NCBI GenBank assembly: GCA_902362595.1
Contig: CABIXF010000027.1
Location: 1-53,285 of the forward strand
Direction of reading: 5' to 3'
Source: Bacteroidaceae bacterium
Lineage (GTDB): Bacteria; Bacteroidota; Bacteroidia; Bacteroidales; Bacteroidaceae
Length of the DNA: 53,285 nt
Shown here: one piece after another, positions 12,026 through 34,956 of the stretch
Numbering within the stretch: the first letter of the stretch is position 1
Layout: the number at the start of each line of letters is the position of its first letter
Made by a program: the position numbers and the translations under genes
Notes under the pieces: generated by a model
Seen by the model: only the letters and a program-made list of their open reading frames with translations
Database searches by the model: none
Told to the model about the DNA's origin: nothing

Positions 12026-13507
12026 TTATTTCTGTTTTTCTTTCCATAAACGTGTCATGTCTTCCAGTGTTTTGCCCTTAGTCTCTGGAACCAGCCGCCA
12101 TACAAAGAGGGCAGCAAGGATACAGATTGCTCCGTAGAGTCCATATACGAACATGTGGCCGAATTTATCTCCCATCTCTCCGGCACTCATGTTATACATG
12201 GGCAGGAAGGTGGAGGAGACAATGAAGTTGAATATCCATTGGAAGGCTACGGCGATGGCTACGGCAGCTCCACGAATGGTATTGGGGAAGATTTCAGCAA
12301 TAAGTACCCAGCAGATAGGTCCCCAGCTGAACATAAACGAGGCACTGTAGACCATGATGCTGATAACTGGTATCATGGGGGATAGTCCTGTAACCGCGTT
12401 GCTGAGAGCCACTCCGAAGGCACCTGCTGCCATGCCGATGGAACCATAAATCAGTAGTGGCTTGCGTCCCCATTTTTCTACCGTAAAGACGGCTAACAGT
12501 GTGAACAGGATGTTGATAATTCCCATGAATACAGTTTGTACCATTGGGTTACCCATGCCCATACTTTCGAAAATACGCGGAGCGAAATAGAGTACGGCGT
12601 TGATGCCTACTGCTTGTTGGAATACGCTCAGCATGATGCCGATGAAGATGACCATCCAGCCGTAAGTGAAAAGTTTTTCAGTTTTTTCATTCGCTGTGGC
12701 TTTGATGTCATTGAGAATCGCTTTGGCTTGTGTCAGTCCGTTGATGCGGCTTAGTACGAACAGGGCTCTTTCATCTCGTCCGGTCATGGCCAGGTAGCGA
12801 GGAGTCTCGGGTACGAATAATACCAGAAGAGTGAATAAACCGGCAGGTACGGCTTCACTGACAAACATCAGACGCCATCCGGTTTCAATACTCCAGGCTG
12901 CAGCCTCTGGATTCATGATGCGGTTCACGCCGTCTACGATTTCGACTACCGGGTTCAGATGGTCGCCTAAGATGAGGAAGTTGACGAAATAGACTACCAG
13001 CTGGCCGAAGATGATGGCAAACTGGTTCCAGGAAACTAATGTTCCTCGGATGTTACTTGGCGCAATTTCGGCAATATACATCGGGCAGATGGCCGAAGCC
13101 AATCCTACACCTATTCCTCCAACTACACGATAAAAGTTGAATGCTACCAACAAAGAGTAGGAAGGGTCTCCGTAGGGAAATATAAGAAATTCCGGATAGT
13201 ATGAGCCCAAGGCGGACAGGAAAAACATCACTCCCGCAGCCAGCAAAGACAGCTTTCTTCCAAAACGGGATGCAAAATAGCCGGAAAGCGCACTGCCGAG
13301 AATACAGCCCAATAGAGCACTTGAGGAAGTGATTCCGTGCCAGGTATCGGTATAGATGAAATCGTCTGCTCTAATGAAGAAAGCCTGGAGGCCTTTTTCT
13401 GCTCCAGAAATGACAGCCGTATCATAACCGAACAGTAGCCCTCCGAGAACGGCTACAAGTACGATGGAAAACAGATAGGCTCTGCTTCCTTTTTCTGTGT
13501 AATTCAT
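12026..13507 (-). CDS. xylE: D-xylose:proton symporter, MFS sugar porter
   Basis: 493 residues with twelve predicted membrane helices and all sugar-porter marks: LLFGYDTAVISG after helix 1, RFGRK in the loop between helices 2 and 3, PETPRYL after helix 6, the QQAVGINAVLYFAP motif in helix 7, KWGRKPL, and PETKGKTLEDM at the C-terminus. It moves xylose across the inner membrane. The ATG at 13507 (MNYTEKGSRAY) was taken; the in-frame extension to 13570 runs through a structured intergenic hairpin. It is the distal gene of xylR-xylB-xylA-xylE, 101 nt after the xylA stop. Substrate is inferred from the operon; the sequence itself only shows a sugar porter. Confidence 0.93.
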   Translation of the reverse strand: MNYTEKGSRAYLFSIVLVAVLGGLLFGYDTAVISGAEKGLQAFFIRADDFIYTDTWHGITSSSALLGCILGSALSGYFASRFGRKLSLLAAGVMFFLSALGSYYPEFLIFPYGDPSYSLLVAFNFYRVVGGIGVGLASAICPMYIAEIAPSNIRGTLVSWNQFAIIFGQLVVYFVNFLILGDHLNPVVEIVDGVNRIMNPEAAAWSIETGWRLMFVSEAVPAGLFTLLVLFVPETPRYLAMTGRDERALFVLSRINGLTQAKAILNDIKATANEKTEKLFTYGWMVIFIGIMLSVFQQAVGINAVLYFAPRIFESMGMGNPMVQTVFMGIINILFTLLAVFTVEKWGRKPLLIYGSIGMAAGAFGVALSNAVTGLSPMIPVISIMVYSASFMFSWGPICWVLIAEIFPNTIRGAAVAIAVAFQWIFNFIVSSTFLPMYNMSAGEMGDKFGHMFVYGLYGAICILAALFVWRLVPETKGKTLEDMTRLWKEKQK

Positions 13508-13533
13508 AATGAATAAGTTTTTAGGGAAAACAA

Positions 13534-13587
13534 AACCGGCATACCCAGTCGGGGGGAAGATAAACTTCACCGACGGGCATGCCGGTT
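13534..13587 (-). other. Stem-loop between xylA and xylE
   Basis: AACCGGCAT (13534-13542) pairs perfectly with ATGCCGGTT (13579-13587), and inside it GTCGG (13549-13553 region) can pair with CCGAC (13570-13574 region). No T-tract follows on the minus strand, so it is more likely an RNA stability or processing element that sets the xylE level relative to xylA than a terminator (inference). Confidence 0.45.
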
Positions 13588-13608
13588 GAGCGCTAAATTT
13601 TTAGCTCA

Positions 13609-14925
13609 TTAGCAATACATGTTTACAATAGCTTCGTACAATTCTTGTTTTCCGCTGGTCTGTTTCGGTTCGCCTGCGGTCTTTGCGTATGCTACAACAT
13701 CTTCCAGAGTCAGCTTGCCTTTTTCAAAGTCTTTTCCTTTTCCGCTGTCAAATGAAGCGTAACGTTCAGCAAACATTTTCTTGTAAGGAGATTCTTCGAG
13801 CAGACGGGCTGCATTTTCCAATGCACGGGCCATGGCATCCATTCCGGCGATGTGTGCGATGAAGATGTCTTCCAGGTCGGTAGAGTTACGGCGTGTCTTG
13901 GCATCGAAGTTGGTACCGCCGTTGCCCAGACCACCGCCACGGATAATCTGCATCATGGCCTGAATCAGTTCATAATTGTCGATAGGGAACTGGTCGGTAT
14001 CCCATCCGTTTTGATAGTCACCGCGGTTGGCGTCGATAGAACCCAGCATGCCGTTGTCGACAGCAACAGCCAGTTCGTGTTCAAAGGTATGACCGGCCAG
14101 TGTGGCGTGGTTTACTTCAATGTTTACTTTGAAGTCTTTGTCCAATCCGTGTGCTCTCAAGAAGCCGATTACGGTTTCTGTATCTACATCATACTGGTGT
14201 TTAGTCGGTTCCATCGGTTTGGGTTCAACCAGGAAAGTTCCTTTGAAGCCTTTGGCACGGGCGTAGTCACGAGCCATTTTCAGCATCTGTGCCAGGTGTT
14301 CCTTTTCACGTTTCTGGTCGGTGTTCAGCAGTGACATGTAACCTTCACGTCCACCCCAGAATACATAGTTTGTACCACCCAGTTCGATGGTTGCATCGAT
14401 GGCATTTTTAATCTGTACGGCGGCACGGGCTACTACGTCGAAATCAGGATTGGTAGCTGCACCGTTCATGTAACGTGCGTGACCGAATACGTTGGCAGTA
14501 CCCCACAACAGTTTGATACCTGTTTCTTCCTGTTTTTTCTTGAGATAAGCAACGACTTCTTTCAGGTTTGCTTCGTATTCTTCGATGGTAGCAGCTTCGT
14601 CGCACAAGTCTACATCGTGGAAGCAGTAGTATTCGATACCGATTTTCTGCATGAATTCAAAACCTGCATCAGCCTTGTCTTTTGCAGCCTGTACTTTGTC
14701 AGGATTTCCTTTCCAAGGGAAGGTTTTTGTACCGCCACCAAATTGGTCGCCGCCTTCAGCACACAAGGTATGCCACCAAGCCATAGCAAACTTCAACCAT
14801 TCTTTCATTGGTTTGCCCATGATGATTTTGTTTGCATCATAATAACGGAAAGCCATCGGGTTTTTGCTTTCTACACCTTCAAATTTGATTTTTCCGATAC
14901 CCGGAAAGTACTCTTTTGTTGCCAT
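13609..14925 (-). CDS. xylA: Xylose isomerase
   Basis: 438 residues, the size of class II xylose isomerases, with the longer N-terminus. It converts D-xylose to D-xylulose in the cytoplasm. Catalytic FHDVD (H103, D106), WGGREGY, the metal-binding [16 protein letters not shown] and [14 protein letters not shown], and [17 protein letters not shown] are all present, so the two-metal TIM-barrel site is complete. The start ([10 protein letters not shown]) is 18 nt after the xylB stop. It is transcribed with xylB and, through the stem-loop region, xylE. Confidence 0.98.
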
Positions 14926-14943
14926 AATATTTTCGTTTAAAAG

Positions 14944-16443
14944 TTAATGGATGATTTTATTTTTTGTTGATTTTTCGAGACATTCTTTCCAACGTGCGTA
15001 TGCGTCGGCGTAGGCTGCTTCATCGGATGCTTTCGGCTCGATGACGGCCAGTTTGTCGAGAGTAGCAAAAGCCTCTACGTGGTCGCGGTAGATGCCTGCT
15101 CCCATACCTGCTCCTTTGGCTGCTCCTACGGAACCGTCTGTGTCATACAGTTCAATGGTGGCTCCGGTTACTCCGGCCAGGGTGTCACGGAAGAGCGGGC
15201 TCAGGAACATATTCGCATGTCCTGCGTGAATCTTTTTCACATCCATGCCCATGCCTTTCATGATATCGATGCCATAACGGAAGGAGAACACAATTCCTTC
15301 TTGTGCGGCACGCAGCAGGTGACTGCGGTTGTGCAGGTTGAAGTTGATACCTTGGATGGAACAGCCTGTTTCCTGATTCTGCAACATGCGTTCTGCACCG
15401 TTTCCAAACGGAAGGATACTGATACCGTCTGCACCAATAGGAGCTTGTGCAGCCACTTCGTTCATTTCTGCATAGTTCAGGTCGGAAGCGAGCGTACGCT
15501 TCATCCAAGAGTTCAGGATGCCTGTGCCGTTGATGCAGAGCAGGACGCCCAAACGGGTTTGTGAAGCGGTGTGATTGACGTGTGCAAAGGTATTGACACG
15601 TGATTGTGGGTCGTAGTTTACGCTGCCGTTCACACCATATACCACTCCGGATGTGCCCGCGGTAGAAGCTATCTCTCCCGGGTTGAACACGTTCAGTGAC
15701 AGGGCGTTGTTAGGCTGGTCTCCCGCACGGTAGGTTACGGGAGTGCCTGCTTTCAGTCCCAGTTCAGCTGCTACCTTTTCGGTCAGTTTTCCTTGTTCGG
15801 AGAAGGTCGGGCGGATATCGGCCAAAAGGGAAGCATCAATACCGTAATAATTCAGCAAGAAATCGGCTACCTTGTTTTCTTTAAAATCCCAGAACATTCC
15901 TTCCGACAATCCAGAGACAGTGGTACAAATTTCTCCGGTCAGGCGCATGGCGATGTAGTCGCCCGGAAGCATTACTTTATAGATTTTTGCATATATGTCA
16001 GGTTCGTTTTCTTTGACCCATGCCAGTTTGGAGGCCGTGAAATTACCCGGTGAGTTGAGCAGGTGAGAAAGGCACTGTGCTTCTCCTAACTCTTGAAAGG
16101 CTTTCTGTCCGTAAGGTACAGCTCTGGAGTCACACCAGATGATAGAAGGGCGGAGCACTTGTTGGTTCTTGTCCACACAAACCAGTCCATGCATCTGGTA
16201 AGAAATACCGATGGCTTTGATTTCTTCTGGTTTGGCTCCTGAAGTGGACAGTACAGCCTGTGTGGACAGTTTCAGATTTTCCCACCAGCTTTGTGGGTCT
16301 TGTTCAGCCCATCCTTGTTTCACGGCGAGGATGGGTGCTTCTGTCTTCGGGAAAAAGGCGGATGCTGCACATTTTCCAGTTTCTACGTTGACCAGACTCG
16401 CCTTGACCGACGAGCTTCCTATGTCATAACCTAATAAATACAT
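14944..16443 (-). CDS. xylB: Xylulokinase
   Basis: 499 residues of the FGGY carbohydrate-kinase family, phosphorylating D-xylulose to feed the pentose phosphate pathway. The first phosphate-binding loop is YDIGSSSVKASL near the N-terminus. The substrate region QMHGLVCVD matches xylulokinase. AGDQPNNALS, ASTAGTSGVVYGV and AKGAGMGAG lie in the C-terminal ATPase half. It starts 18 nt downstream of the xylR stop and ends 18 nt before xylA, so all four genes are likely one unit. Confidence 0.95.
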   Translation of the reverse strand: MYLLGYDIGSSSVKASLVNVETGKCAASAFFPKTEAPILAVKQGWAEQDPQSWWENLKLSTQAVLSTSGAKPEEIKAIGISYQMHGLVCVDKNQQVLRPSIIWCDSRAVPYGQKAFQELGEAQCLSHLLNSPGNFTASKLAWVKENEPDIYAKIYKVMLPGDYIAMRLTGEICTTVSGLSEGMFWDFKENKVADFLLNYYGIDASLLADIRPTFSEQGKLTEKVAAELGLKAGTPVTYRAGDQPNNALSLNVFNPGEIASTAGTSGVVYGVNGSVNYDPQSRVNTFAHVNHTASQTRLGVLLCINGTGILNSWMKRTLASDLNYAEMNEVAAQAPIGADGISILPFGNGAERMLQNQETGCSIQGINFNLHNRSHLLRAAQEGIVFSFRYGIDIMKGMGMDVKKIHAGHANMFLSPLFRDTLAGVTGATIELYDTDGSVGAAKGAGMGAGIYRDHVEAFATLDKLAVIEPKASDEAAYADAYARWKECLEKSTKNKIIH

Positions 16444-16461
16444 GTTTATATTGTTTTTTGA

Positions 16462-17190
16462 TTATCTTCTTGTCTTGTTGTAGATTTTCCGGTCAAAGCG
16501 GTAATACCGTGCGGCACGATGAGATACTCCTTGTTCATATTCCTCCAAAGGTACGATGTATTCCATCATGGAAATCTTTTTGTGGAAGTTTCGCACATCC
16601 AGTTGTTTTCCGTATACCACTTCGTAGAGCATACGTAATTGCAAGGCTGTGAATTTTCTTGGCAGCAGCTCAAAAATGCACGATGGATTGAATTCTATGT
16701 GCTGACGGATGAGCCTCATGGCTTCTGCGATTATCAGGTTATGGTCAAACGCCAGATCTTTTACTTCTTCGAGCGCTACCCATTCAGCTTTGTATTCATT
16801 CAAATTTTTATTTAATGCCTTGTCTATTTTTACTAAAGCAAGATAGGCTATAGTGACAATTCGTTCTACCTTGGCTTTTTCCGCTCTTTCCAGCCAATGT
16901 ACATCTTTCGGGTTCTTGGTACGGTCTTTAGAACCGAAAGCCTTGAATTGCATCAGATCTACATTTTTTAGGCCAGTCAAATCCTGAAGTACCCGTTTGG
17001 CCGCATCGTCCAAGTCTTCATCCATATAGATAAGGCTTCCTGGGAGCTTCATGTCGTGGAAAACTTCTCCACTTTCTTCTCCCATACGTTTGACGAGTAG
17101 CACTTTTAATTTCTCTCCGTCGAATCCGATGACTACGCAATCTACTGAGATGTGGTTGTTGGCCAATTGTCTTGTGTATTCCATAAGCAT
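16462..17190 (-). CDS. xylR: Nudix-fold transcriptional regulator of xylose genes (XylR/NrtR type)
   Basis: 242 residues. Residues about 12-150 show a Nudix-hydrolase fold (VDCVVIGFDGEKLKVLLVKR), but the Nudix box at 51-73 is degenerate: the expected REUXEEXGU core reads KRVLQDLTGL, so the Glu residues that bind catalytic metal are missing. Residues about 165-235 form a winged-helix DNA-binding domain (FTALQLRMLYEVVYGKQLDVRNFHKK). This plan is that of NrtR-family regulators, and Bacteroides use such Nudix regulators for arabinose (AraR) and xylose. Its place as first gene of the xyl operon supports xylose sensing. ATG at 17184 is an alternative start. Confidence 0.88.
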   Translation of the reverse strand: MLMEYTRQLANNHISVDCVVIGFDGEKLKVLLVKRMGEESGEVFHDMKLPGSLIYMDEDLDDAAKRVLQDLTGLKNVDLMQFKAFGSKDRTKNPKDVHWLERAEKAKVERIVTIAYLALVKIDKALNKNLNEYKAEWVALEEVKDLAFDHNLIIAEAMRLIRQHIEFNPSCIFELLPRKFTALQLRMLYEVVYGKQLDVRNFHKKISMMEYIVPLEEYEQGVSHRAARYYRFDRKIYNKTRR

Positions 17191-17548: not shown

Positions 17549-17556
17549 TACCTTTG
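17549..17556 (+). promoter_or_regulatory. -7 box of the MBL hydrolase gene
   Basis: TACCTTTG is an exact TAnnTTTG box, 24 nt before the ATG at 17581. No clear TTTG lies at the -33 distance. The in-frame TTG at 17554 overlaps this box and is not the start. Confidence 0.55.
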
Positions 17557-17580
17557 CATTGTTTTTTAGAGGAAATAATT

Positions 17581-18393
17581 ATGGAGAATTCAATGAAATT
17601 AATCATGTTGGGTACGGGAAATGCTGCCGTAGTGAACTGTTACAATACGTGTTTCGCACTTTGTCGAGGAGAAAATTTTTTTCTGGTGGATGCGGGAGGA
17701 GGCAACGGTATCTTGCAGCAGCTTCAGAAAGCCCATATACCTTTGAATGGGATTCATGAGATTTTTGTAACGCATGCCCATACCGATCATATTTTAGGAG
17801 TGATTTGGATGATTCGTGTGGTGGCACAGGCCATGCAGAAAGGAGAGTACGAAGGAAAATTACGTGTGTACGGCCATGACAAGGTGGTGAAGGTGCTCGA
17901 CTGGATTTGTCGGATGACTTTACCGAAAAAGATTGTAGTCCGCTTGGGAGAGGACATTCTGTTGTGTGAAGTAGAGAATGGAGGAAAATTTCAGGCCATT
18001 GGTCTGGAGGTAGAATGCTTTGATATTGCTTCTACAAAAGAAAAGCAGTTTGGTTTTCGTACTTGTTTGCCCGACGGACAGTCGCTGGTCTGTCTGGGCG
18101 ACGAACCCTACAATGAATGTAACCGGCATTATGTCGAAGAAGCCGACTGGTTGTTGTGTGAGGCCTTCTGTTTGTATGAAGACCGGGAGCGTTTTAAGCC
18201 TTACGAGAAACATCACAGCACGGCACTTGATGCCGGACGGCTGGCAGCCCAACTGGGTGTGAAAAAACAGCTGTTGTATCATACGGAGGATAAAACGCTT
18301 GCTACTCGAAAAGAACGTTATACGGCAGAAGCTGCTTCACAGTTTAGCGGGAAGGTATATGTGCCGGATGATTTAGAGGAGATTATATTATAG
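17581..18393 (+). CDS. MBL-fold metallohydrolase, RNase Z-like
   Basis: 270 residues of the metallo-beta-lactamase fold. After MKLIMLGTGNAAVVNCYNT comes FLVDAGGGNG and then the metal-binding HAHTDH (H65, H67, D69, H70). CLGDEPYNE near 185 and a late HHSTALDAG (about residue 222) supply further ligands, and H246 in YHTEDK fits the last one. The order and the short early GTGNA segment resemble RNase Z/ElaC-like and beta-CASP-free hydrolases, but the length and sequence do not let me decide between tRNA 3' processing and a small-molecule ester or phosphodiester hydrolase. AGAGGAAATAATT before ATG 17581 is a plausible ribosome site. Alone on its transcript, ended by a shared terminator. Confidence 0.85.
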   Translation: MENSMKLIMLGTGNAAVVNCYNTCFALCRGENFFLVDAGGGNGILQQLQKAHIPLNGIHEIFVTHAHTDHILGVIWMIRVVAQAMQKGEYEGKLRVYGHDKVVKVLDWICRMTLPKKIVVRLGEDILLCEVENGGKFQAIGLEVECFDIASTKEKQFGFRTCLPDGQSLVCLGDEPYNECNRHYVEEADWLLCEAFCLYEDRERFKPYEKHHSTALDAGRLAAQLGVKKQLLYHTEDKTLATRKERYTAEAASQFSGKVYVPDDLEEIIL

Positions 18394-18550: not shown

Positions 18551-19591
18551 TTATTTCATTATCTTGACAAAGTAAGTCAGAGTAGGAAGATGGTCACTGA
18601 AACCGTTTTGGAAAGTTGTACCAGAGAAGGTTCGGAGCGGATAGCCTTTGTATTTTCCTTCCTGTTGGATAAGGAAAGGACGGTTGAATACTTCGCTTTT
18701 CCAGAACTTCAGTGTAGTACGGTCTTTTCCAATAAGGTTGCCGGATATTATCTGCTGATCGAACAGATTCCACTGATTCTGATAGCAAAGAGAGCCGATA
18801 CCTTGGTCGTATAGTTTCCATGTGGCATTGTAATATCCGTTAGCTTTTACTTTCTTGATATCTTTTTTGGCACCCAGTACCTCACTGCAACTTTTGTTAT
18901 ATGGGTCATCGTTCAAGTCACCCACAATCAGCACCTTGGCTTCCGGATTCTGTGCATGGATGGAATCACCGATATGCTTCACGATGCTGGCTGCAAATTC
19001 TCTTAGCGGAGAGGAGGCAGCACCGCCGTAGCGTGAAGGCCAGTGATTGACAATCAGGTGGAAGGGTTCTCCTGCCAAGATACCGCTTACCAACAAGATA
19101 TCACGGGTCTTGTAGTTGGGCATATCCGGTTTGTGGAAGGGATAAGTACGTGCGTCAATTAGCTTAAACAATTTTGGGTTGTATAATGCTGCTACGTCGA
19201 TACCTCTGTGGTCGGGTGACTCAAAGTGTACGATTTCATATCCCATTCCATCGATAGGAGTTGTGTGGGTCAAGTCTTCCAATACCTTTCGGTTTTCTAC
19301 TTCAGCCACGCCGATGATGGCAGGACCAGCCGGGCAATAATCTTTTCCTAGCTGAGAAATCACTTTGGCAATGTTCTGTAATTTTTGTTCATACTTGGAC
19401 TGAGTCCATTCATATTTTCCTTCAGGTGTGAAATCATCGTCACCTTTATTGTTGGGGTCGTCAATTGTGTCCCAAAGATTTTCCAAGTTATAGAATGCGG
19501 CTGCATATACTCCCAGTCTGTCTTGTGCAGACAGACGGAGAGTATACACACAAGCGATGAACAAAGTGAAAATGAGTAATCGTTTATTCAT
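18551..19591 (-). CDS. Secreted endonuclease/exonuclease/phosphatase (EEP) family protein
   Basis: 346 residues with a signal peptide ending near LRLSAQD. The EEP fold is complete: FYNLENL (N35, E37), the metal ligand in VAEVEN (E97), HRGIDVAALY (128-137), NHWPSR (182-187), GDLNDDP (224-230) and the terminal SDHLP (332-336) with the catalytic Asp-His. The family covers DNase I-like nucleases and several phosphodiesterases; the NLENLWD opening is what is seen in ExeM/NucH-type extracellular nucleases. It is the last gene of a five-gene minus-strand block, 18 nt after the DUF5689 gene, with a terminator just beyond. Likely periplasmic or secreted nucleic-acid cleavage (inference). Confidence 0.9.
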   Translation of the reverse strand: MNKRLLIFTLFIACVYTLRLSAQDRLGVYAAAFYNLENLWDTIDDPNNKGDDDFTPEGKYEWTQSKYEQKLQNIAKVISQLGKDYCPAGPAIIGVAEVENRKVLEDLTHTTPIDGMGYEIVHFESPDHRGIDVAALYNPKLFKLIDARTYPFHKPDMPNYKTRDILLVSGILAGEPFHLIVNHWPSRYGGAASSPLREFAASIVKHIGDSIHAQNPEAKVLIVGDLNDDPYNKSCSEVLGAKKDIKKVKANGYYNATWKLYDQGIGSLCYQNQWNLFDQQIISGNLIGKDRTTLKFWKSEVFNRPFLIQQEGKYKGYPLRTFSGTTFQNGFSDHLPTLTYFVKIMK

Positions 19592-19609
19592 AACTTCTGT
19601 TGTTTGGTA

Positions 19610-21004
19610 TTAATGCTCGGGTGTGGGTTCAATGGTGGTTCCTTCTTCGTTGCCGGAGGTGCTGCTACCTGGAACATAGAGTTTTACATTGTATAGGCGC
19701 AATCCATAGGCGTTGTCAGTAGTTGTGCAATAGAATTCCAAGGTCGTATTGTCGGATACTGTGACATTTTCGATAGTCATCTTGAAAGGAGTGTTTCCTT
19801 GCTTGGCATCGCCTGTAACTTCTTTGCTCGGGATACTCAACTCTTGTCCGTTGCATTTGACTTTCAGTGTGTTCAAATCCTGTTTCTCACCAGCATTATA
19901 TACGTTAGCGCCTACCTGGTATTCTAATGTTGCAGAGGTATTGCCTTGTGCATTGATACCTTTAATGGCAATAGCTACGTCCTTATTTCCTGGGAACCAA
20001 ACATTGGTAAGGTTGCTGACGATACGAACAGAGGCTTTTTCTTCCGAAGTATTCTCAAACATGCTGGCAGGATTGTCAAATCCTTTATAATCGCTGAGGT
20101 AAGGCCAGTAGTTCCCGCTCTTTTCAGGAGTTCCAAAAGATTCCTGGAATAGCACTTTTTCGCTGCTGGGTGTTTGTTCTCCTCCTTCATTACCACCTTC
20201 TTCACTGCTTCCAGTAAAGTCGCTGACATCGCTGGCAGTGCGTAGCGTGAGCTGCCATGTACCTCTGAATCGTCCTAAAATACCTGTTACGTTACCTTTT
20301 CCTGTTGGCAGTTTGTTGCCAGCAAAGCTGGCATAGTTGCTGGTACGAATCATGAGTGTATTTCCATGGCTGTCGGTAATGTTTTCTTCACCATAACCGC
20401 TTTCAGGAGCGAAGATTCCAGTTCCTCCGTTTTGGAAAGTTACTCCAGTAAATTGAATCAGTTTGAATTTGTATGCATCAGGGTTTGTATTGATGGTGCT
20501 GATGTCATCGATTACAAGAGGTTTTGCATTTTCGGGATTAGCCCATCCGTCTTTACTTACGTGTTTCTCAAAATCTTCCCATGGAGTTCGATACAAATAG
20601 CCTTGCGGGTGACCCAATTGCTGTTCGTCACCATATACGGAGATGCTCAGTCCGTTCAGGTCTACATAAACGGTCTGACCTACCGGGTAGTAATTGTATA
20701 CACTGCTTTGGTCTACTTCCATTTCAATGGCACCCGTTTCATCCTGCAGGTAGATTTTCTTGAAGATGTTTCCCGATTCATCGTTGCCGGTGATTACTGC
20801 TTTCAGTACCTGATCTTGCGAAATGATGACAGGAGTGTCTTCAGTAGCCGCAGCCGTTTGTGTGCGAAGTTCGGAAATCGTAATATTAGCTGACGGGCCT
20901 GTATATTCAGGTTCTGTCAGGAGAGGAGCGTCGTAGTCTCGTTCACAGGCAAAAAGAGCGAGTGAAGCAATGAGTGGCAGACTGATATTTTTTAAGAGTT
21001 TCAT
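19610..21004 (-). CDS. DUF5689 (OB-fold-like) lipoprotein
   Basis: 464 residues with a lipobox LFAC near residue 19, then ERDYD: acidic residues next to the lipidated Cys, as in Bacteroidota surface-export signals. Residues about 38-225 are a DUF5689 region. Its VLKAVITGNDESGNIFKKI / LQDETGAIEMEVDQS / YPVGQTVYVDLNGLSI series looks like the OB folds of YhcR/NucH-type nucleases. A Gly/Glu linker (about 235-250) leads to a C-terminal beta-sandwich-like region starting LFQESFGTPEKSG. No catalytic residues are evident, so nucleic-acid or glycan binding is the likely role. It sits between the TonB receptor and the EEP gene with short gaps (28 and 18 nt). Confidence 0.82.
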   Translation of the reverse strand: MKLLKNISLPLIASLALFACERDYDAPLLTEPEYTGPSANITISELRTQTAAATEDTPVIISQDQVLKAVITGNDESGNIFKKIYLQDETGAIEMEVDQSSVYNYYPVGQTVYVDLNGLSISVYGDEQQLGHPQGYLYRTPWEDFEKHVSKDGWANPENAKPLVIDDISTINTNPDAYKFKLIQFTGVTFQNGGTGIFAPESGYGEENITDSHGNTLMIRTSNYASFAGNKLPTGKGNVTGILGRFRGTWQLTLRTASDVSDFTGSSEEGGNEGGEQTPSSEKVLFQESFGTPEKSGNYWPYLSDYKGFDNPASMFENTSEEKASVRIVSNLTNVWFPGNKDVAIAIKGINAQGNTSATLEYQVGANVYNAGEKQDLNTLKVKCNGQELSIPSKEVTGDAKQGNTPFKMTIENVTVSDNTTLEFYCTTTDNAYGLRLYNVKLYVPGSSTSGNEEGTTIEPTPEH

Positions 21005-21032
21005 ATATTCTGAGTTTTATGTAAGTTATTGA

Positions 21033-23750
21033 TTAAAAACGGTAGCTGACATTCAAGAAGCAGTTGATTCCCTGCATGTAATAGTATTTTCCTCCAAAGC
21101 GTTCCGGATGTTCAAGGTCGAAACGGCCTTGTTCATATCCTCCAGTACAAATGTCTTTTTTATTCAGTACATTGTTTAGAGAGAGATTAAAGTTGATAGA
21201 CTGTTTTCCAGGTAGATAAAAGATTTTTCCTACAGATAAATCCAGTGTATAGGCTGCTGGGAAACGTTCTTGTGTAGTCAGTTGTTTGAAAGCATCGTAG
21301 TATTGGTTATACGGTGTGACAGAAGTGTAACTTGATGCCAAGCGGCGGAGTGGTGCTGCTTCAATGTAATTGCGTGCAAATCCATTCAGGTTGGCTCCCA
21401 GGAACCAATAGTTGATGAAGTAACGAATTCCGAATGTACCGGCTATTTGTGGAACTCCACCCACATATACATCTTTCATGTATACTTTTTCTTGTGCGAC
21501 AATTTTTCCGTTTTCTGAATTCTTTATACCGTCCGGATTATTGCTATAGTAATATTCACCCACGGTGCCGGCCAAGTCAAAGCTCCAGTGGTCATCTACT
21601 TTATAAGTAGCTCCCAGTTCAACTCCTCTGTGGATCCGATTCACTCCATAAAGCACGTGGTTGATGAATGTTCCTTCAATGCCATCGTAGTAGCTGCTAC
21701 GTTCCATCTGGTCGTAGAAATTGGTTTGGAATACTCCGATACGTCCGGCCAGGTGAGGAGTAGAGAAGATGTAGTTGATATCAGCAGAGAGAATGCGTCC
21801 GCTCTTCATATTATCGATTGTACGGTCGGTGATACGTGGTGATACGTACGCTTCGTTGGGCAGAGGAGCTTCGCTTCCGTAGCTGATATTGGCATTGATC
21901 ATGTGACGTCCGTTGAATTTATAGGTCAATCCTCCTTTTACTGTCAGGTCGGTAAACTGGTGGCGTGCACCTTTTCCGAAGGAGCTGTCAGGATAACGTC
22001 CGTTACGCATTTTACCGTCACGCTGGAAACTGGTATAAGTCAGTTTCATACCATAATAGTAGTCCCAATAACGTGAATGATACTGGTTAACTACCCATGC
22101 GTTCAATGAGTAAATGTTCAGGTTGTAGTTGTAACCGAAGATGCCATCCTCATACACCTTTCTTTGTGGACGGTTCAAGTCATTTTGTATTTTATCCGGG
22201 TCTCCGGAGAAATCCTGTTCTGCAAACTTGTCGATGTCCAATACGTATTCGGCTCCCAAGAGGTCGTTTACGGTTTTAAATTGGCGTGACTGGGTATATC
22301 TTGCCCCTATGCCAGCCGTAATGTCAAAGTGTCGGCTCATGTGTGCATTCAGGGTAGAGTTGAATGAGGTTTCCAATAAATCACTGCGGCGTTCTTCTAC
22401 CATGTAGACAGCAGCTCCATTGCCATTACGGATATTGTTGGCATTAGCCAGGTACAAGTCATTCCAGTTAATCTGAGTAAAATCCGTTTGATTGCTGCTC
22501 CATAAGGCTTTGTATCTAGCCTGTGTTTCCTCGTTTTCGAAATATGACGGCAAATAACGGTAATAATCCGGTCGTGGGTCTGGGGCATTATACCAGTTCA
22601 ATGCTGTATTTCCATAACGGGCATAGTGTGCTCCTACGCCTGTGGTCAGCGTCATGTTGTCATTGATTTTCCAAATGTGTGAAATAATAGCTGTCGGGTC
22701 GAAGGCCGTTACCACCTTGGCATTTCTTTTCTTTCCGTTCTGATATCCCCAGTTCGGGTTATAAAGGTAGTTTCCTGTCAGTTCATATACTTCACGGTAG
22801 GAACTTCCTTGCTGTCCGCGTTGTACAGGCGAAACGAAAGCCACCATAGACAGGCTGTGCTTTCCACCCAGCCATTGCTTTTCGGCAGAAAAAGCGAAAG
22901 AAACATTCTTGTAGAATGTACCATCGATATTACCTTCATTGGAATAACGTCCACCGATGGAAGTTGTGAACGCCCATCCGTTGTCTTTTAATCCGGTAGA
23001 ATAGGTAAACATACCCCGGAGATAATAATTTCGGTTCGTGTAGCTTAAAGTTAACTTTCCACCTGGAGTGTAAGTACTAGCCCGCATGTTGATGTTTTCG
23101 GTCCCTCCCAGTTCTCCAAAAGTAAAAGAAGAAGGTGCGGTGAAGTTTGTCACGTCTCCGTTGCGGGTCATATCGTTCAACGCTCCCACTGATGCATAAT
23201 TGAAGACACCTCGGTTTTGGTCGTTGAATTCTACTCCGTTGATGTATTTCACTTCTTGTGTGCTGTTGTAGCCGCGTGGAGAAAAACGGGCTGGTGACAG
23301 TTGATAAGCCGCCTTGTTCAGGAAAATATCGTTAGATAAAATAACGGTAGAACTTACATCCTGGCCGGAAGTTTCTACATCATCGTCTACCATGCCTGCA
23401 TCAATGATACCAATCATGGATACATCTTCGTTGGCGTTCAGTTCAGTTACTCGGATAGGTTTTAGTTCAGTTACGCCTAAGTCTTCTACTTCAATGGATA
23501 CACTCTTGGGCGTAATCATTACGGAGTTAAGCTGAATGACGTATTTTCCCGGCTTGATGTCCCGGATGGTAAAGTTTCCATCCGCGTCGGTTCTAACTTG
23601 ACGGTTTTGTCCTTTTACCGTCACGATGACTCCGGGAACGGGGTCATTGCTTACTGCTCCGATCACACTTCCTTTCACGTTCACATTTCCTTGTGCAAAG
23701 GCAAGGTAAGGAAGGAAGAATGCCATGAAGAACAGTAATTTGTGTTTCAT
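21033..23750 (-). CDS. TonB-dependent outer-membrane receptor
   Basis: 905 residues with a signal peptide ending LAFAQG. Residues about 22-110 are a carboxypeptidase-regulatory-like beta-sandwich (VKGSVIGAVSNDPVPGVIVTVKG, DADGNFTIRDIKPGKY). A plug domain follows (about 125-240; RFSPRGYNSTQEVKYINGV). The rest is a 22-strand barrel rich in aromatic girdle residues, ending in aromatic Phe (LNVSYRF). No SusD-like partner gene is adjacent, so it is not a classical polysaccharide locus; its neighbours are nucleases. I infer import of nucleic-acid fragments or nucleotides, but metal or another ligand is possible. A tonB gene is present at 50447. The start lies just after a 19-bp hairpin. Confidence 0.92.
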   Translation of the reverse strand: MKHKLLFFMAFFLPYLAFAQGNVNVKGSVIGAVSNDPVPGVIVTVKGQNRQVRTDADGNFTIRDIKPGKYVIQLNSVMITPKSVSIEVEDLGVTELKPIRVTELNANEDVSMIGIIDAGMVDDDVETSGQDVSSTVILSNDIFLNKAAYQLSPARFSPRGYNSTQEVKYINGVEFNDQNRGVFNYASVGALNDMTRNGDVTNFTAPSSFTFGELGGTENINMRASTYTPGGKLTLSYTNRNYYLRGMFTYSTGLKDNGWAFTTSIGGRYSNEGNIDGTFYKNVSFAFSAEKQWLGGKHSLSMVAFVSPVQRGQQGSSYREVYELTGNYLYNPNWGYQNGKKRNAKVVTAFDPTAIISHIWKINDNMTLTTGVGAHYARYGNTALNWYNAPDPRPDYYRYLPSYFENEETQARYKALWSSNQTDFTQINWNDLYLANANNIRNGNGAAVYMVEERRSDLLETSFNSTLNAHMSRHFDITAGIGARYTQSRQFKTVNDLLGAEYVLDIDKFAEQDFSGDPDKIQNDLNRPQRKVYEDGIFGYNYNLNIYSLNAWVVNQYHSRYWDYYYGMKLTYTSFQRDGKMRNGRYPDSSFGKGARHQFTDLTVKGGLTYKFNGRHMINANISYGSEAPLPNEAYVSPRITDRTIDNMKSGRILSADINYIFSTPHLAGRIGVFQTNFYDQMERSSYYDGIEGTFINHVLYGVNRIHRGVELGATYKVDDHWSFDLAGTVGEYYYSNNPDGIKNSENGKIVAQEKVYMKDVYVGGVPQIAGTFGIRYFINYWFLGANLNGFARNYIEAAPLRRLASSYTSVTPYNQYYDAFKQLTTQERFPAAYTLDLSVGKIFYLPGKQSINFNLSLNNVLNKKDICTGGYEQGRFDLEHPERFGGKYYYMQGINCFLNVSYRF

Positions 23751-23790
23751 AAAAAATTAATTGTTAGTTTAGTGTAATTTATAAGGGGTT

Positions 23791-23838
23791 AAAAGAGAAC
23801 ATGAAAAAGTTTTATAAAGCTTTTTCATGTTCTCTTTT
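23791..23838 (-). other. Perfect 19-bp stem-loop between lipoprotein and receptor genes
   Basis: Bases 23791-23809 and 23820-23838 are perfect reverse complements around a 10-nt loop. On the minus strand it lies 23 nt after the lamin-tail lipoprotein stop and 40 nt before the receptor start. The stem ends CTCTTTT and is followed by AACC, so termination would be partial. It may set a higher level of the two upstream lipoproteins than of the receptor, or it may end one operon. I saw no TAnnTTTG box between it and the receptor gene. Confidence 0.65.
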
Positions 23839-23861
23839 TAGAGGAATTCAAAATGAAAATA

Positions 23862-25817
23862 TTAGTCCATAGTGTGATTTCCTAATCCACTCACATCATC
23901 TTTGGAAAGAGTTTCCCATTGAGATGCATTATACGTAGAAGAAGGCGCTGTCACATTAGACTTTCTACGTAAAGTCACATCTTTAGCAAAATCAGCGCTA
24001 CCGCCATTAAATGTTCCAATAATATCGATAAGGACTCCATTTTTGAATAAACCAACCGGGTCGTTTCCATTGAAATTGATTGCGTTGCAAACAGTAGCTT
24101 CTCCTGGGTAAATTGTAGCGTTACTATTTTTGTAAACTATGGTTGATTTTGCTGCAATGGTTCCAGATAGTTCGCTATAATTTGAATATCCTGTGCCATC
24201 TTTACTCCACGATGCTCCTCCATTTGTATTTAAATCAATTGCATAAGCAGACAAATCGATTACTTCGTTAGTCGGATTATAGATTTCAATGTATTTGTTG
24301 TTGCTTGACCCTTCTACATATTCAGAAATAAATAAGTCTGCATTTCCAGTTTCCGTCCCTGGTTCTGGATCCGGTTCTGGTGTAACTGTTCCGCCACCTT
24401 CTCCGTTGGCAATGACTTTCACATCATAAACTTCCCATGTAGCTGCAGCCGCAGTTGTACTTACATACTTGAAGGCAAACTTGATTTTTTTGCCAGTATA
24501 AGCAGATAAGTCTATATTTCCTGAAGAAACTTTATCCCAGTTGTTTCCAGCAGGGTAGTTTGGAATCGCTACTTGTTGCCAGTTCTCTGTAGATGTTTCG
24601 GTAACCCATAAGGTCTGTTGAGTTTTCATATCACCTGCATGGTTAATGATATGCATGAAACTCAGGGTGGCAGTAGTAGCGGTAGACAAATCTACTTCTG
24701 GAGAAATCAACCAGCTTTCTGATGCTTTGGCACCACTGATAAATGCACTGGCTTTCATATAGTAATAAGGAGTTCCTCCTGTGGTTGTTCCTGCGTCATG
24801 TTTCCAAACATAACTTCCTCCTTCCGGAAGTTGTTTATCTTCAATGGTAAAGTTTCCTTGGCTGGTAGCGAATGATTCATCTAATACTACGGTTTCTTTA
24901 CCTGGTTGAACTTCACCATCAAAATCTACATTAATATCTCCACCTGGTTTTTCAGTCCAATCTTCAATGGTTGCTGTACCTACAGTTACTACTGGTTTGC
25001 CATTGTTGATGGACAAGTTGGCGTTGAAGGTAACGTTTTTGCCTTCTTCAAAGATTGAAGCATCAGTTAGGGTATAAGTGTATGATTTACCTGCGAGGTT
25101 GAATTTCAAAGTCACAGCAGTCTGATCGGTAGAGGCTGCGGTTGGGAGAATGATTGCAGTGGCGGTTGTACCTTCTGCATTCACATTCATGGCCACGTCT
25201 TTCTGGTTGGTGCCAGCGGTAGCAGTCAACGTTCCATTGCCTAAATTGAATTCTCCTTCTGTACTGATTCCGTTCATGTCGATAGTCAGTCCGTTCAAAG
25301 TCTCAATTGTGGCGTCTTTTGATACGTTGATGGTCATTTTCGACAATTTGTGAGTAAACGTCAGGCTGATGTTGGAAGATGTGGTTGCTGCTACTCCTTT
25401 AGTTCCGTTAGAGTAAATCAAGTCGATGGCGGCTGGTTTACTTTGGTCTGATACGTTGACTGCAATTTTGTTACCACTTACGCTTGTGGTATAAGGATAG
25501 TATGCAATGAAGTCTACACTTCCACTTTCCGGAAGGTAGATGCCATTGCCCGAAGCTGCTGTCAGTGTACCGTTGGTTTGTGCAATGTACTTCTTGTTTT
25601 GTGCAGTAGCTGCATCAATAGTACCTCCTGCGTTCATCATGTAGATACCTACTTCGTCGTTCGCATTCCAAGTGTTGCCGGATACTCTTGACTGAATGGC
25701 AGTAGTAAAGACGATACCTTCACTTCCGTACCATTCGCTGTTGTCATCGTTGTTTGTACAGCTCACTAGAGCTAGGGTTGATAATGCCCCCATGTACAGT
25801 AAATTCGAGATCTTCAT
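23862..25817 (-). CDS. Fimbrillin-like lipoprotein with choice-of-anchor J and lamin-tail domains
   Basis: 651 residues. A signal peptide with lipobox LVSC (C20) is followed by TNNDD, an acidic stretch that fits a Bacteroidota surface-export signal. Residues about 30-290 match the fimbrillin-like (Mfa-like) fold and share the motif VDFIAYYPY with the next upstream protein. Residues about 310-480 resemble a choice-of-anchor J beta-sandwich (LDESFATSQGNFTIED, SWLISPEVDLS). A Pro/Glu linker then leads to a C-terminal lamin-tail domain at 492-651 (LFISEYVEGSSNNKYIEIYN, DPVGLFKNG, VTLRRKS). Lamin-tail domains accompany EEP catalytic domains in extracellular nucleases. Here it is a separate surface protein with no catalytic motif, possibly for DNA or partner binding. 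Confidence 0.85.
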   Translation of the reverse strand: MKISNLLYMGALSTLALVSCTNNDDNSEWYGSEGIVFTTAIQSRVSGNTWNANDEVGIYMMNAGGTIDAATAQNKKYIAQTNGTLTAASGNGIYLPESGSVDFIAYYPYTTSVSGNKIAVNVSDQSKPAAIDLIYSNGTKGVAATTSSNISLTFTHKLSKMTINVSKDATIETLNGLTIDMNGISTEGEFNLGNGTLTATAGTNQKDVAMNVNAEGTTATAIILPTAASTDQTAVTLKFNLAGKSYTYTLTDASIFEEGKNVTFNANLSINNGKPVVTVGTATIEDWTEKPGGDINVDFDGEVQPGKETVVLDESFATSQGNFTIEDKQLPEGGSYVWKHDAGTTTGGTPYYYMKASAFISGAKASESWLISPEVDLSTATTATLSFMHIINHAGDMKTQQTLWVTETSTENWQQVAIPNYPAGNNWDKVSSGNIDLSAYTGKKIKFAFKYVSTTAAAATWEVYDVKVIANGEGGGTVTPEPDPEPGTETGNADLFISEYVEGSSNNKYIEIYNPTNEVIDLSAYAIDLNTNGGASWSKDGTGYSNYSELSGTIAAKSTIVYKNSNATIYPGEATVCNAINFNGNDPVGLFKNGVLIDIIGTFNGGSADFAKDVTLRRKSNVTAPSSTYNASQWETLSKDDVSGLGNHTMD

Positions 25818-25847
25818 AATTGTATATTTATAAGGAACATGATTAGA

Positions 25848-27458
25848 TTATTTCCATGCAGTCTTTTGGCTTTTTATGCTTTCAGTGATTTCCGGTTTAT
25901 CTGGGAAAAATGTAAAGCCAGTCATTTCTTCCAATTCTTTGACAGATACAAGTCCTATGTTAAAGTTTCTGTCGCTGTACGAAATGTTGTCTAACTTATA
26001 GCCTACAGTCTGATATTGTCCGTTTACTTTTCGTGCAAGTGCCTTGAAATAGTATTTAGGTATGGCTATTTTATTTCCGTCGCGGTCAGTAGTATATTGG
26101 ATAGTCTGGTCGGTGGCGGTTGTAGGCATAGCTCCTGTTACGACATACAATGTATCTGTTGCGCTGCTCCATCCTCTGACTGCATCTTCCAGATCTGCCC
26201 AAATAGTCTGGTTCAGTTTTTTGCCTATTTGGGGAGTCATGTTGGTGTAGTAAAACGTTTGGCTGTTGATGGCGTTTGACCGCAGGCGGTCACCGCTTGG
26301 AAGTTGGTGTCCTCGGTCATAATCGTTGGCAGGATATGAACTTGACAGGTTGGCTTGTAGTGATTTAGATAATTGAGGGTCATAGTCCCATGCATCAGTA
26401 CGTTTTCCGCTTCCATTTACGTACCAGTTGCACAGAGGATAAGCTACCCAGTAGGCTATCTTTAAATCGGTATCATAAAGCATGCTGTAATTTCGGATTT
26501 CAGTTCCATTGAATGTGTTGCTGGGGTAATACTCTCCAGTGTAATGAGTAATGTATTTTATATTTGATTTGGCCAGTTGAGACTCGGTAATCAATGGTGT
26601 TTCTGTCCATCTTGTATATTTTGCCTGAGGATCGGTTGTGATTTCTCCCCCTTTATAATTTATATTGACATTGCAAATATATTTGGCTCCTTGTTCGATG
26701 TTTCCCGTAACCGTTGTTTCAATATCTTTAGTCTGTCCGTTCAGTTCCAGCTGAATTTTTAATTTCCCGGTCAGGGGTTGCGGAAGTAGGATTGCTTCAG
26801 CCTGCGTACCGTTTTCGTTCATATAGAAAGAGATGGTAGCAGTTTCATTGGTGGCCGTAATGATACCGCTGGAAAGATTGGCTGTACCTTTCACTTTCAG
26901 CCCATTAATAGATGCTTTTATACCTTTTAATGAACTGCCGGTTGTAGATTTCAGGTTCAACACCATTTTGGCCAGCAAGTGTTTGAATTGAAGGTTTCCT
27001 TGTGGAGAAGTTTGGTTGCGTCCCGTCAGGTTTGTAGCCGTCATCAGGTCGATGGTATTTTGTGTAGTTTGGTTGCTCAAGTCTATAGGGTATGCTTTAT
27101 AGTCGCTGACCTGTTCACTGTAAGGGTAATATGCAATGAAATCAACTGCACTTCCATCTTCCGGATAGTTCATGGAAGTGTTCAGTCCAGTAAAATAACC
27201 GTTCCCACTTTTCGTAATATATGGCACATTTCCACTCACCATATTCTGTCCTTCGTGTGAAAGCATGAAAAGCCCGATCACGTCGTTTGTTTCCCATGAT
27301 CCGTCGTAGGCTCGTGAAGCATTGGAATCATCTATGATGGAAGTGAAAGTGATTCCATACTTGTTCACTTCGTTCTGGATGATACTTGTTTCGTCATTCT
27401 GACAAGCGGGCAGAATGCTTAGGGAAAGCATAATCCCTAGTAATGATTTCATTTTCAT
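25848..27458 (-). CDS. Fimbrillin-like lipoprotein with DNA/RNA non-specific endonuclease domain
   Basis: 536 residues. Lipobox LPAC (C19) is followed by QNDE, a likely surface-export signal. Residues about 30-270 are fimbrillin-like and related to the neighbour's N-terminus. Residues about 285-530 are a NUC-family nuclease: DRGHQ at 381-385 with the general base H384, TNMTPQ (405-410) and N416 with W420 and E424 supplying the Mg-binding Asn helix of Serratia-type nucleases, and a later YVVTGA. All hallmark residues are present, so activity on DNA and RNA is likely. It is the first gene of the block; 30 nt separate it from the lamin-tail gene. ATG at 27452 is an alternative start. Confidence 0.9.
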   Translation of the reverse strand: MKMKSLLGIMLSLSILPACQNDETSIIQNEVNKYGITFTSIIDDSNASRAYDGSWETNDVIGLFMLSHEGQNMVSGNVPYITKSGNGYFTGLNTSMNYPEDGSAVDFIAYYPYSEQVSDYKAYPIDLSNQTTQNTIDLMTATNLTGRNQTSPQGNLQFKHLLAKMVLNLKSTTGSSLKGIKASINGLKVKGTANLSSGIITATNETATISFYMNENGTQAEAILLPQPLTGKLKIQLELNGQTKDIETTVTGNIEQGAKYICNVNINYKGGEITTDPQAKYTRWTETPLITESQLAKSNIKYITHYTGEYYPSNTFNGTEIRNYSMLYDTDLKIAYWVAYPLCNWYVNGSGKRTDAWDYDPQLSKSLQANLSSSYPANDYDRGHQLPSGDRLRSNAINSQTFYYTNMTPQIGKKLNQTIWADLEDAVRGWSSATDTLYVVTGAMPTTATDQTIQYTTDRDGNKIAIPKYYFKALARKVNGQYQTVGYKLDNISYSDRNFNIGLVSVKELEEMTGFTFFPDKPEITESIKSQKTAWK

Positions 27459-34845: not shown

Positions 34846-34956
34846 TGCCCTCAGGTAACCTCGTTTGCTTCTTTTAATTAAAAACTATGCAGTAATTTAA
34901 GAAATCTACTTTATCTTTATAAGAAACAACCGAAGTGAAATTTTAATTTGAAGGAT

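Follow-up and report, generated by a model that had tools for sequence, protein, structure and literature searches.

We analysed a 53,285-nucleotide stretch of Bacteroidaceae DNA (the window), in which five minus-strand open reading frames lie between positions 18551 and 27458. All five had been proposed in a sequence-only reading of the window. Its domain calls (lamin tail, EEP, DUF5689 and NUC) were borne out by Pfam, and each active-site or motif residue that it named is found at the position it gave. The genes encode two lipoproteins that we refer to as NUC and LTD, a TonB-dependent receptor, a DUF5689 lipoprotein and an EEP nuclease. Gaps of 30 bases separate NUC from LTD, 28 the receptor from DUF5689, and 18 DUF5689 from EEP. 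The gap between LTD and the receptor folds into a hairpin that divides NUC-LTD from receptor-DUF5689-EEP. Given these gap sizes and the hairpin, the locus likely comprises two transcription units, NUC-LTD and receptor-DUF5689-EEP. The equivalent gap has a fold energy of -19 kcal/mol or lower in 12 of 14 loci with the same five-gene arrangement, in a survey of folding energy in which longer gaps fold more; hairpin shape was inspected for the window gap alone.

Table 1. Features of the locus in the window, and fimbrillin genes with exchangeable C-termini in related loci (prefixed by the locus).
Feature	Position	Strand	Description
EEP nuclease gene	18551..19591	minus	PF19580; catalytic E97, D333, H334
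DUF5689 lipoprotein gene	19610..21004	minus	OB-like DUF5689 part, C-terminal jelly roll; RA0C_RS04920 homologue
TonB-dependent receptor gene (outer membrane)	21033..23750	minus	N-terminal CarboxypepD_reg; RA0C_RS04915 homologue
LTD-receptor gap	23751..23861	minus	111 bases; 19-pair hairpin, terminator- or attenuator-like
LTD lipoprotein gene	23862..25817	minus	Fimbrillin-like, choice-of-anchor J and C-terminal lamin tail (Pfam, NCBIfam)
NUC lipoprotein gene	25848..27458	minus	N-terminal PF13149, C-terminal PF01223, DRGH with H384
Fimbrillin gene	L014:7483-9822		DUF5689
Fimbrillin gene	L006:2134-3861		BACON
Fimbrillin gene	L172:6863-8569		BACON
Fimbrillin gene	L173:11527-13443		Lamin tail

Around the locus, a sugar transporter gene, a xylose-isomerase-like gene and an FGGY kinase gene, together with a NUDIX-type regulator identified by eye (16462-17190), occupy positions 12026-17190 and probably constitute a xylose-use cassette. 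A plus-strand gene at 17554-18393, convergent with the EEP gene, encodes a metallo-beta-lactamase-fold protein that is RNase Z-like but scores far under the family cut-off. Further away on the plus strand (34948-40566) is a bacterial alpha-2-macroglobulin of 1872 residues.

The C-terminal Endonuclease_NS domain of NUC (PF01223, E 1e-40) belongs to a protein whose sequence matches the structures of EndoG, NucA and the Serratia nuclease. Together with a lipobox judged by eye, this makes NUC a probable surface nuclease. Its nearest named relatives, at 79% identity in Phocaeicola plebeius and at 74% in Bacteroides mediterraneensis, make a Phocaeicola-like host within Bacteroidaceae probable. LTD and NUC share an N-terminal fimbrillin-like domain (PF13149, E 2.9e-55 and 1.2e-46, respectively), which the sequence-only reading had not included, nor had it included the choice-of-anchor J domain found by NCBIfam within LTD. 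The lamin tail of LTD matched PF00932 at E 7.1e-14. The EEP protein matched Exo_endo_phos_3 (PF19580) at E 4.8e-120 and has a signal peptide with no lipobox clear to the eye, and it is probably periplasmic.

In the receptor, Pfam recognised CarboxypepD_reg (PF13715/PF13620) and no plug or barrel model at E 0.01, and the predicted structure is a TonB-dependent receptor fold, a barrel with a plug. A search for a TonB box pointed to a low-confidence stretch at 104-137 with a conserved acidic motif, in which no box was recognised. Receptors for siderophores, cobalamin and PQQ headed the fold matches, as would be the case for this fold generally. Such matches would accommodate import of an unrelated ligand (a metal chelate, a cofactor or a peptide) by a receptor to which the nucleases are mere neighbours. 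We regard this as very unlikely, in view of a neighbour order that persists across several orders and seems to have been passed on as one block, and of the transformation phenotype of the homologues in Riemerella anatipestifer, both described below.

The DUF5689 protein matched PF18942 at E 1.3e-63. Its structural model (pLDDT 86.9) gave jelly-roll matches at 279-449, and the fold search reported mainly this C-terminal jelly roll. An OB-like part, which had also been proposed from the sequence, finds some support in a relative (L070) in which the OB profile PF01336 scores 28.9 bits, against a cut-off of 27, in the first half of DUF5689; counting weaker matches, at E 1, the profile matches 6 of 23 DUF5689 members. 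We do not claim an internal duplication of two OB folds, for which hhalign of the two halves gave a probability of 2.3%.

The sequence-only reading had suggested checking the order of these genes in relatives. We compared the best 80 of 588 confirmed loci plus loci from whole genomes, the latter from Weeksellaceae (some with longer flanks) and from hand-picked Bacteroidaceae and Porphyromonas places, so that the counts do not describe a random sample. Eight loci repeating a place, receptors shorter than 780 aa and receptors below 590 bits (distant paralogues) were dropped before counting. The order proved conserved: the DUF5689 gene immediately follows the receptor in 114 of 119 main-family loci. 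An EEP gene lies within four genes of the receptor in 55 of 75 loci; none was found within that distance in the other 20, which counts against a DNA-import function. Across the same 75 loci, EEP homologues make up 57 of the 597 open reading frames within four genes, versus 1 of the 555 farther off. Because of these two counts, for DUF5689 and for EEP, we conclude that the adjacency of receptor, DUF5689 and EEP is not due to chance. NUC lies this close to the receptor less often (22/75), and the full order of NUC, fimbrillin protein, receptor, DUF5689 and EEP occurs in 14 loci including the window. Outside this five-gene form, EEP is divergent and just upstream in 31 of the 75 loci.

The gene preceding the receptor encodes a fimbrillin domain in all 14 five-gene loci, but a lamin tail in only two (the window and L173). 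Elsewhere its C-terminal part carries BACON (2/14, L172 and L006) or DUF5689 (1/14, L014), or no further Pfam domain above cut-off (9/14); L172 has three fimbrillin genes of this kind, the receptor-adjacent one being the one scanned. Because this part of the gene varies between loci, the lamin tail is an exchangeable module and no fixed part of the cassette. Fimbrillin-type domains on both NUC and LTD, and variable C-terminal modules including BACON, would suit management of extracellular DNA in biofilms, with nucleases that clear matrix DNA and import secondary. The B. thetaiotaomicron extracellular DNase BT3563, which is required for bile-dependent biofilm (in the part of PMC11078008 consulted), might offer a precedent. 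Such a role would leave unexplained a dedicated receptor that accompanies DUF5689 and is highly conserved, at 56% identity or more to each of 21 chosen homologues, and we consider it unlikely.

A receptor tree of 129 rows gives a single origin to the 17 rows labelled five-gene (three of them, L002, L096 and L097, on partial evidence), set against 61 rows with a divergent EEP (quick method, support 100); the five-gene clade also holds rows short of one cassette member (L001, L004, L010, L011 and L030). Copies from Sphingobacterium and Elizabethkingia nest within the Bacteroidales group, and the cassette therefore seems to have moved between orders. One Elizabethkingia genome (G010) carries the cassette, at 55% identity, alongside an older copy, at 34%, whose EEP gene is divergent. 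The older copy has two tandem distant receptor paralogues (L125; 24-25% identity) some 8 to 13 kb away. Among 100 Weeksellaceae genomes, a receptor match reaches E 1e-10 in 98 and, in 93 of these, 1e-77 or better; three contain the 55% form. From this distribution and the tree, receptor, DUF5689 and EEP appear to form an old core, to which NUC and the fimbrillin lipoprotein would be a later addition that travels along.

Some loci are arranged differently. In L174 and L175 the order is NUC-EEP-receptor-DUF5689 on one strand, and L175 has additional convergent fimbrillin-NUC and fimbrillin genes; by these two loci, either NUC was added to the core on more than one occasion or the genes were reshuffled. 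Four Bacteroidaceae genomes that have no DUF5689 match (G188, G271, G243 and G170; loci L168, L169, L170 and L171) retain a receptor paralogue, about 25% identical, in front of a choice-of-anchor J protein; these loci may represent a second branch of the system. In a locus from the genus Porphyromonas (L164, genome G309), DUF5689 is split over two overlapping frames beside the receptor; a relative (G314) has a single frame of 506 aa, and no EEP gene was recognised near the receptor in either genome.

The sequence-only reading knew of no described system of this form. The core has in fact been described: in R. anatipestifer, a distantly related bacterium of birds, RA0C_RS04915, a CarboxypepD_reg outer-membrane protein, adjoins RA0C_RS04920, which contains DUF5689 and DUF5017, and markerless deletion of either gene makes transformation undetectable (PMC8459023, consulted in part). 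In the open-licence literature we found this pair, and no account of the five-gene cassette or of the pair in Bacteroidales. The parts of PMC8459023 consulted suggest a new machinery, leave the conversion of double- to single-stranded DNA unexplained, and place homologues of RA0C_RS04915 only in Flavobacteriaceae; here they extend to Bacteroidales, Sphingobacterium and Saprospiraceae. A contig of 2,164,087 bases (genome G062) has the order RecA, DinB, SdhB, SdhA, SdhC, ComEC, a 145-aa protein, a carboxyltransferase, EEP, receptor and DUF5689 with DUF5017. ComEC, carboxyltransferase, EEP, receptor, DUF5689 and DUF5017 were tested with Pfam (PF03772, PF01039, PF19580, PF13620, PF18942 and PF16409), and the other genes were named by eye. 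This order fits RA0C_RS04870 to RA0C_RS04920, with RecA at 04870, ComEC at 04895, the receptor at 04915 and DUF5689 at 04920; the receptor gene (locus L136) is equated with RA0C_RS04915 through its annotation and its place in the register, not by name. By the same register, EEP would be RA0C_RS04910. The portions of PMC8459023 consulted mention the gene upstream of the receptor (RA0C_RS04910 by register) for its transcription and report no mutant of it, which counts against a DNA-import function. The window receptor is 29% identical to that of L136 (963 columns, E 1e-116), the DUF5689 proteins are 27% identical (281 columns), and the window EEP is 35% identical to the EEP adjoining the L136 receptor. 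At only 27-35% identity to the Riemerella proteins, function may have shifted, a further point against import.

We then considered whether these genes accompany comEC. Of the 100 Weeksellaceae genomes, 4 have no comEC match and 7 no DUF5689, and all 4 comEC-less genomes are without DUF5689 (Fisher p 8.9e-6, a value that ignores kinship, follows a prior look at 25 genomes that had prompted the test, and depends on few comEC-less genomes in a set that includes fragmentary assemblies). Leaving out G041 gives p 1.3e-4; this genome counts for little because the Omp85 control is missing there too, the only such case among nine genomes tested. In G067, DUF5689 is present and comEC is a 31-position fragment, and treating it as comEC-less gives p 4.4e-5. 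The absence of DUF5689 is partly an artefact: G039 has a receptor and, in the place of DUF5689, an unrecognised gene of 490 aa. Among the other genomes, G017 has a receptor frame interrupted by one stop, G043 and G089 each have a longer EEP gene at a contig start (in G089, with DUF5689 and no receptor match), and G055 retains a 29% receptor with comEC and DUF5689 absent. PF19580 occurs in 100 of 100 genomes, and the EEP family as such therefore does not follow comEC. Each comEC-less genome has one PF19580 match, of 320-331 aa in G041 and G098 and, judging from the scores, probably of the same short type in G032 and G055.

Among 201 Bacteroidaceae genomes, comEC is found in 196 and DUF5689 in 102, and no link between them was found (99 with both, 97 with comEC only, 3 with DUF5689 only, 2 with neither; p 1.0, with the same caveats on kinship, few comEC-less genomes and fragmentary assemblies). 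ComEC is present in all 14 genomes whose receptor is 51-83% identical (G001-G010, G118, G122, G262 and G312; up to four candidates per genome scored), against a Bacteroidaceae base rate of 196/201. The co-loss in Weeksellaceae supports a coupling of DUF5689 with transformation in that family. The null result in Bacteroidaceae gives no support for such a coupling there and weakens the transformation reading in the window's own family.

Together, these observations lead us to favour, at rather better than even, an outer-membrane DNA-import module encoded by the five genes. In this module, the surface NUC nuclease would cut or nick extracellular DNA, as its family suggests, and the DUF5689 lipoprotein, with its putative OB fold, would hold DNA at the surface, assisted by the second fimbrillin lipoprotein (with a lamin tail here). 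Driven by TonB energy, the receptor would pass DNA into the periplasm with DUF5689 as its lid or partner, a step supported because homologues of both are needed for transformation of R. anatipestifer. DNA in the periplasm would be processed by EEP, and strands would go to ComEC and recombination, or nucleotides be used as food. Import is supported by the deletion phenotypes of RA0C_RS04915 and RA0C_RS04920, the gene register of G062 and the occurrence of the trio in distant relatives. The TonB-receptor fold, the Weeksellaceae co-loss and the single origin of the five-gene rows also argue for it, as do two published phenotypes. Deletion of tonBA, described by the group that reported the Riemerella pair, lowers transformation without an iron defect (PMC8383284, consulted in part); the authors speculate on nutrient transport, and TonB-driven DNA passage is an alternative reading that the consulted part of their report does not raise. 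The second is NucM of Moraxella, a partly membrane-associated entry nuclease whose loss abolishes plasmid transformants and lowers transformation with genomic DNA by at least three logs (PMC6384898, consulted in part).

As to the end use of imported DNA in Bacteroidaceae, transformation stands beside nutrition and the evidence does not decide. The sequence-only reading had proposed a nucleic-acid utilisation locus. Its concerted role on nucleic acid is supported, and it has the import step in common with the module above, from which it differs in the end use. A purely nutritional locus, in which NUC fragments nucleic acid, the receptor imports oligonucleotides, EEP finishes them and no transformation follows, is a serious contender that we place somewhat short of even. 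It would account for two nucleases in one cassette and for a comEC unlinked to DUF5689 in Bacteroidaceae, and in Bacteroidota for which DNA may be a food source, nucleases or nucleotidases both outside the cell and in the periplasm have been reported (PMC8289736, consulted in part). Against it, transforming DNA is not taken up without the core homologues, these vary together with comEC in Weeksellaceae, and the scanned flanking genes of the window included no recognisable nucleotidase or nucleoside transporter. NUC and EEP fit both uses, since an entry role as in NucM and the food-type nuclease pattern are both on record.

More tentatively, and doubtfully, gut Bacteroidaceae might possess a pilus-free natural transformation system: a TonB-energised DNA transporter of the outer membrane, equipped with a dedicated nuclease for entry at the surface and another in the periplasm, built on a Bacteroidota-wide core, with a five-gene cassette passed between orders. 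Two nucleases could degrade transforming DNA, and no Bacteroides of this kind is known to be naturally competent; both points count against the import module as proposed. In most Bacteroidota, type IV pili are not known to serve DNA passage over the outer membrane. That passage is an unanswered problem in Bacteroidota on which the locus bears. EEP, a receptor neighbour across several orders, and NUC would be candidate nucleases for the double- to single-strand step. The receptor-DUF5689 pair is now extended beyond Flavobacteriaceae, and the locus directs attention to gut Bacteroidaceae, whose named relatives in culture would allow uptake to be measured. If the import reading is true, it would amount to an overlooked route of free-DNA intake in gut commensals.

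Several known systems resemble parts of the locus. The sequence-only reading took it for a split ExeM/Xds/NucH nuclease, and the cassette does contain EEP and putative OB-like domains and a lamin tail that resembles that of ExeM (123 bits). These reside on one chain there but in three separate open reading frames in the window, where the EEP belongs to PF19580 and a receptor and a DRGH nuclease are added. Descent by splitting is rejected for EEP, which scores 18.2 bits against the ExeM/NucH family NF033681 (cut-off 300), and is further weakened by a lamin tail unconserved among the 14 loci. SusCD loci likewise combine a TonB receptor, a surface lipoprotein and enzymes. That interpretation was also rejected: as the sequence-only reading had noted, none of the five proteins has a SusD family match (at E 0.01), and the receptor scores 24.9 bits against a SusC/RagA cut-off of 368. 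EndA and NucM belong to the same DRGH-type nuclease family as NUC. NUC differs in that a fimbrillin domain is fused to the nuclease and the protein is probably a lipoprotein, and its role in uptake is putative. DNA-degradation loci of Ca. Izemoplasmatales (PMC8289736, consulted in part) also bring lamin-tail and nuclease domains together for use of DNA, but in former Tenericutes and with TonB unmentioned in the main text. In the Riemerella pair, the EEP is divergent, comEC and the receptor are four genes apart, and the Riemerella-type locus L136 showed no recognisable NUC or fimbrillin gene in the four-gene neighbourhood of its receptor. What the pair and the window have in common is a CarboxypepD_reg receptor gene, a DUF5689 lipoprotein gene after it and a neighbouring EEP gene, by register RA0C_RS04910.
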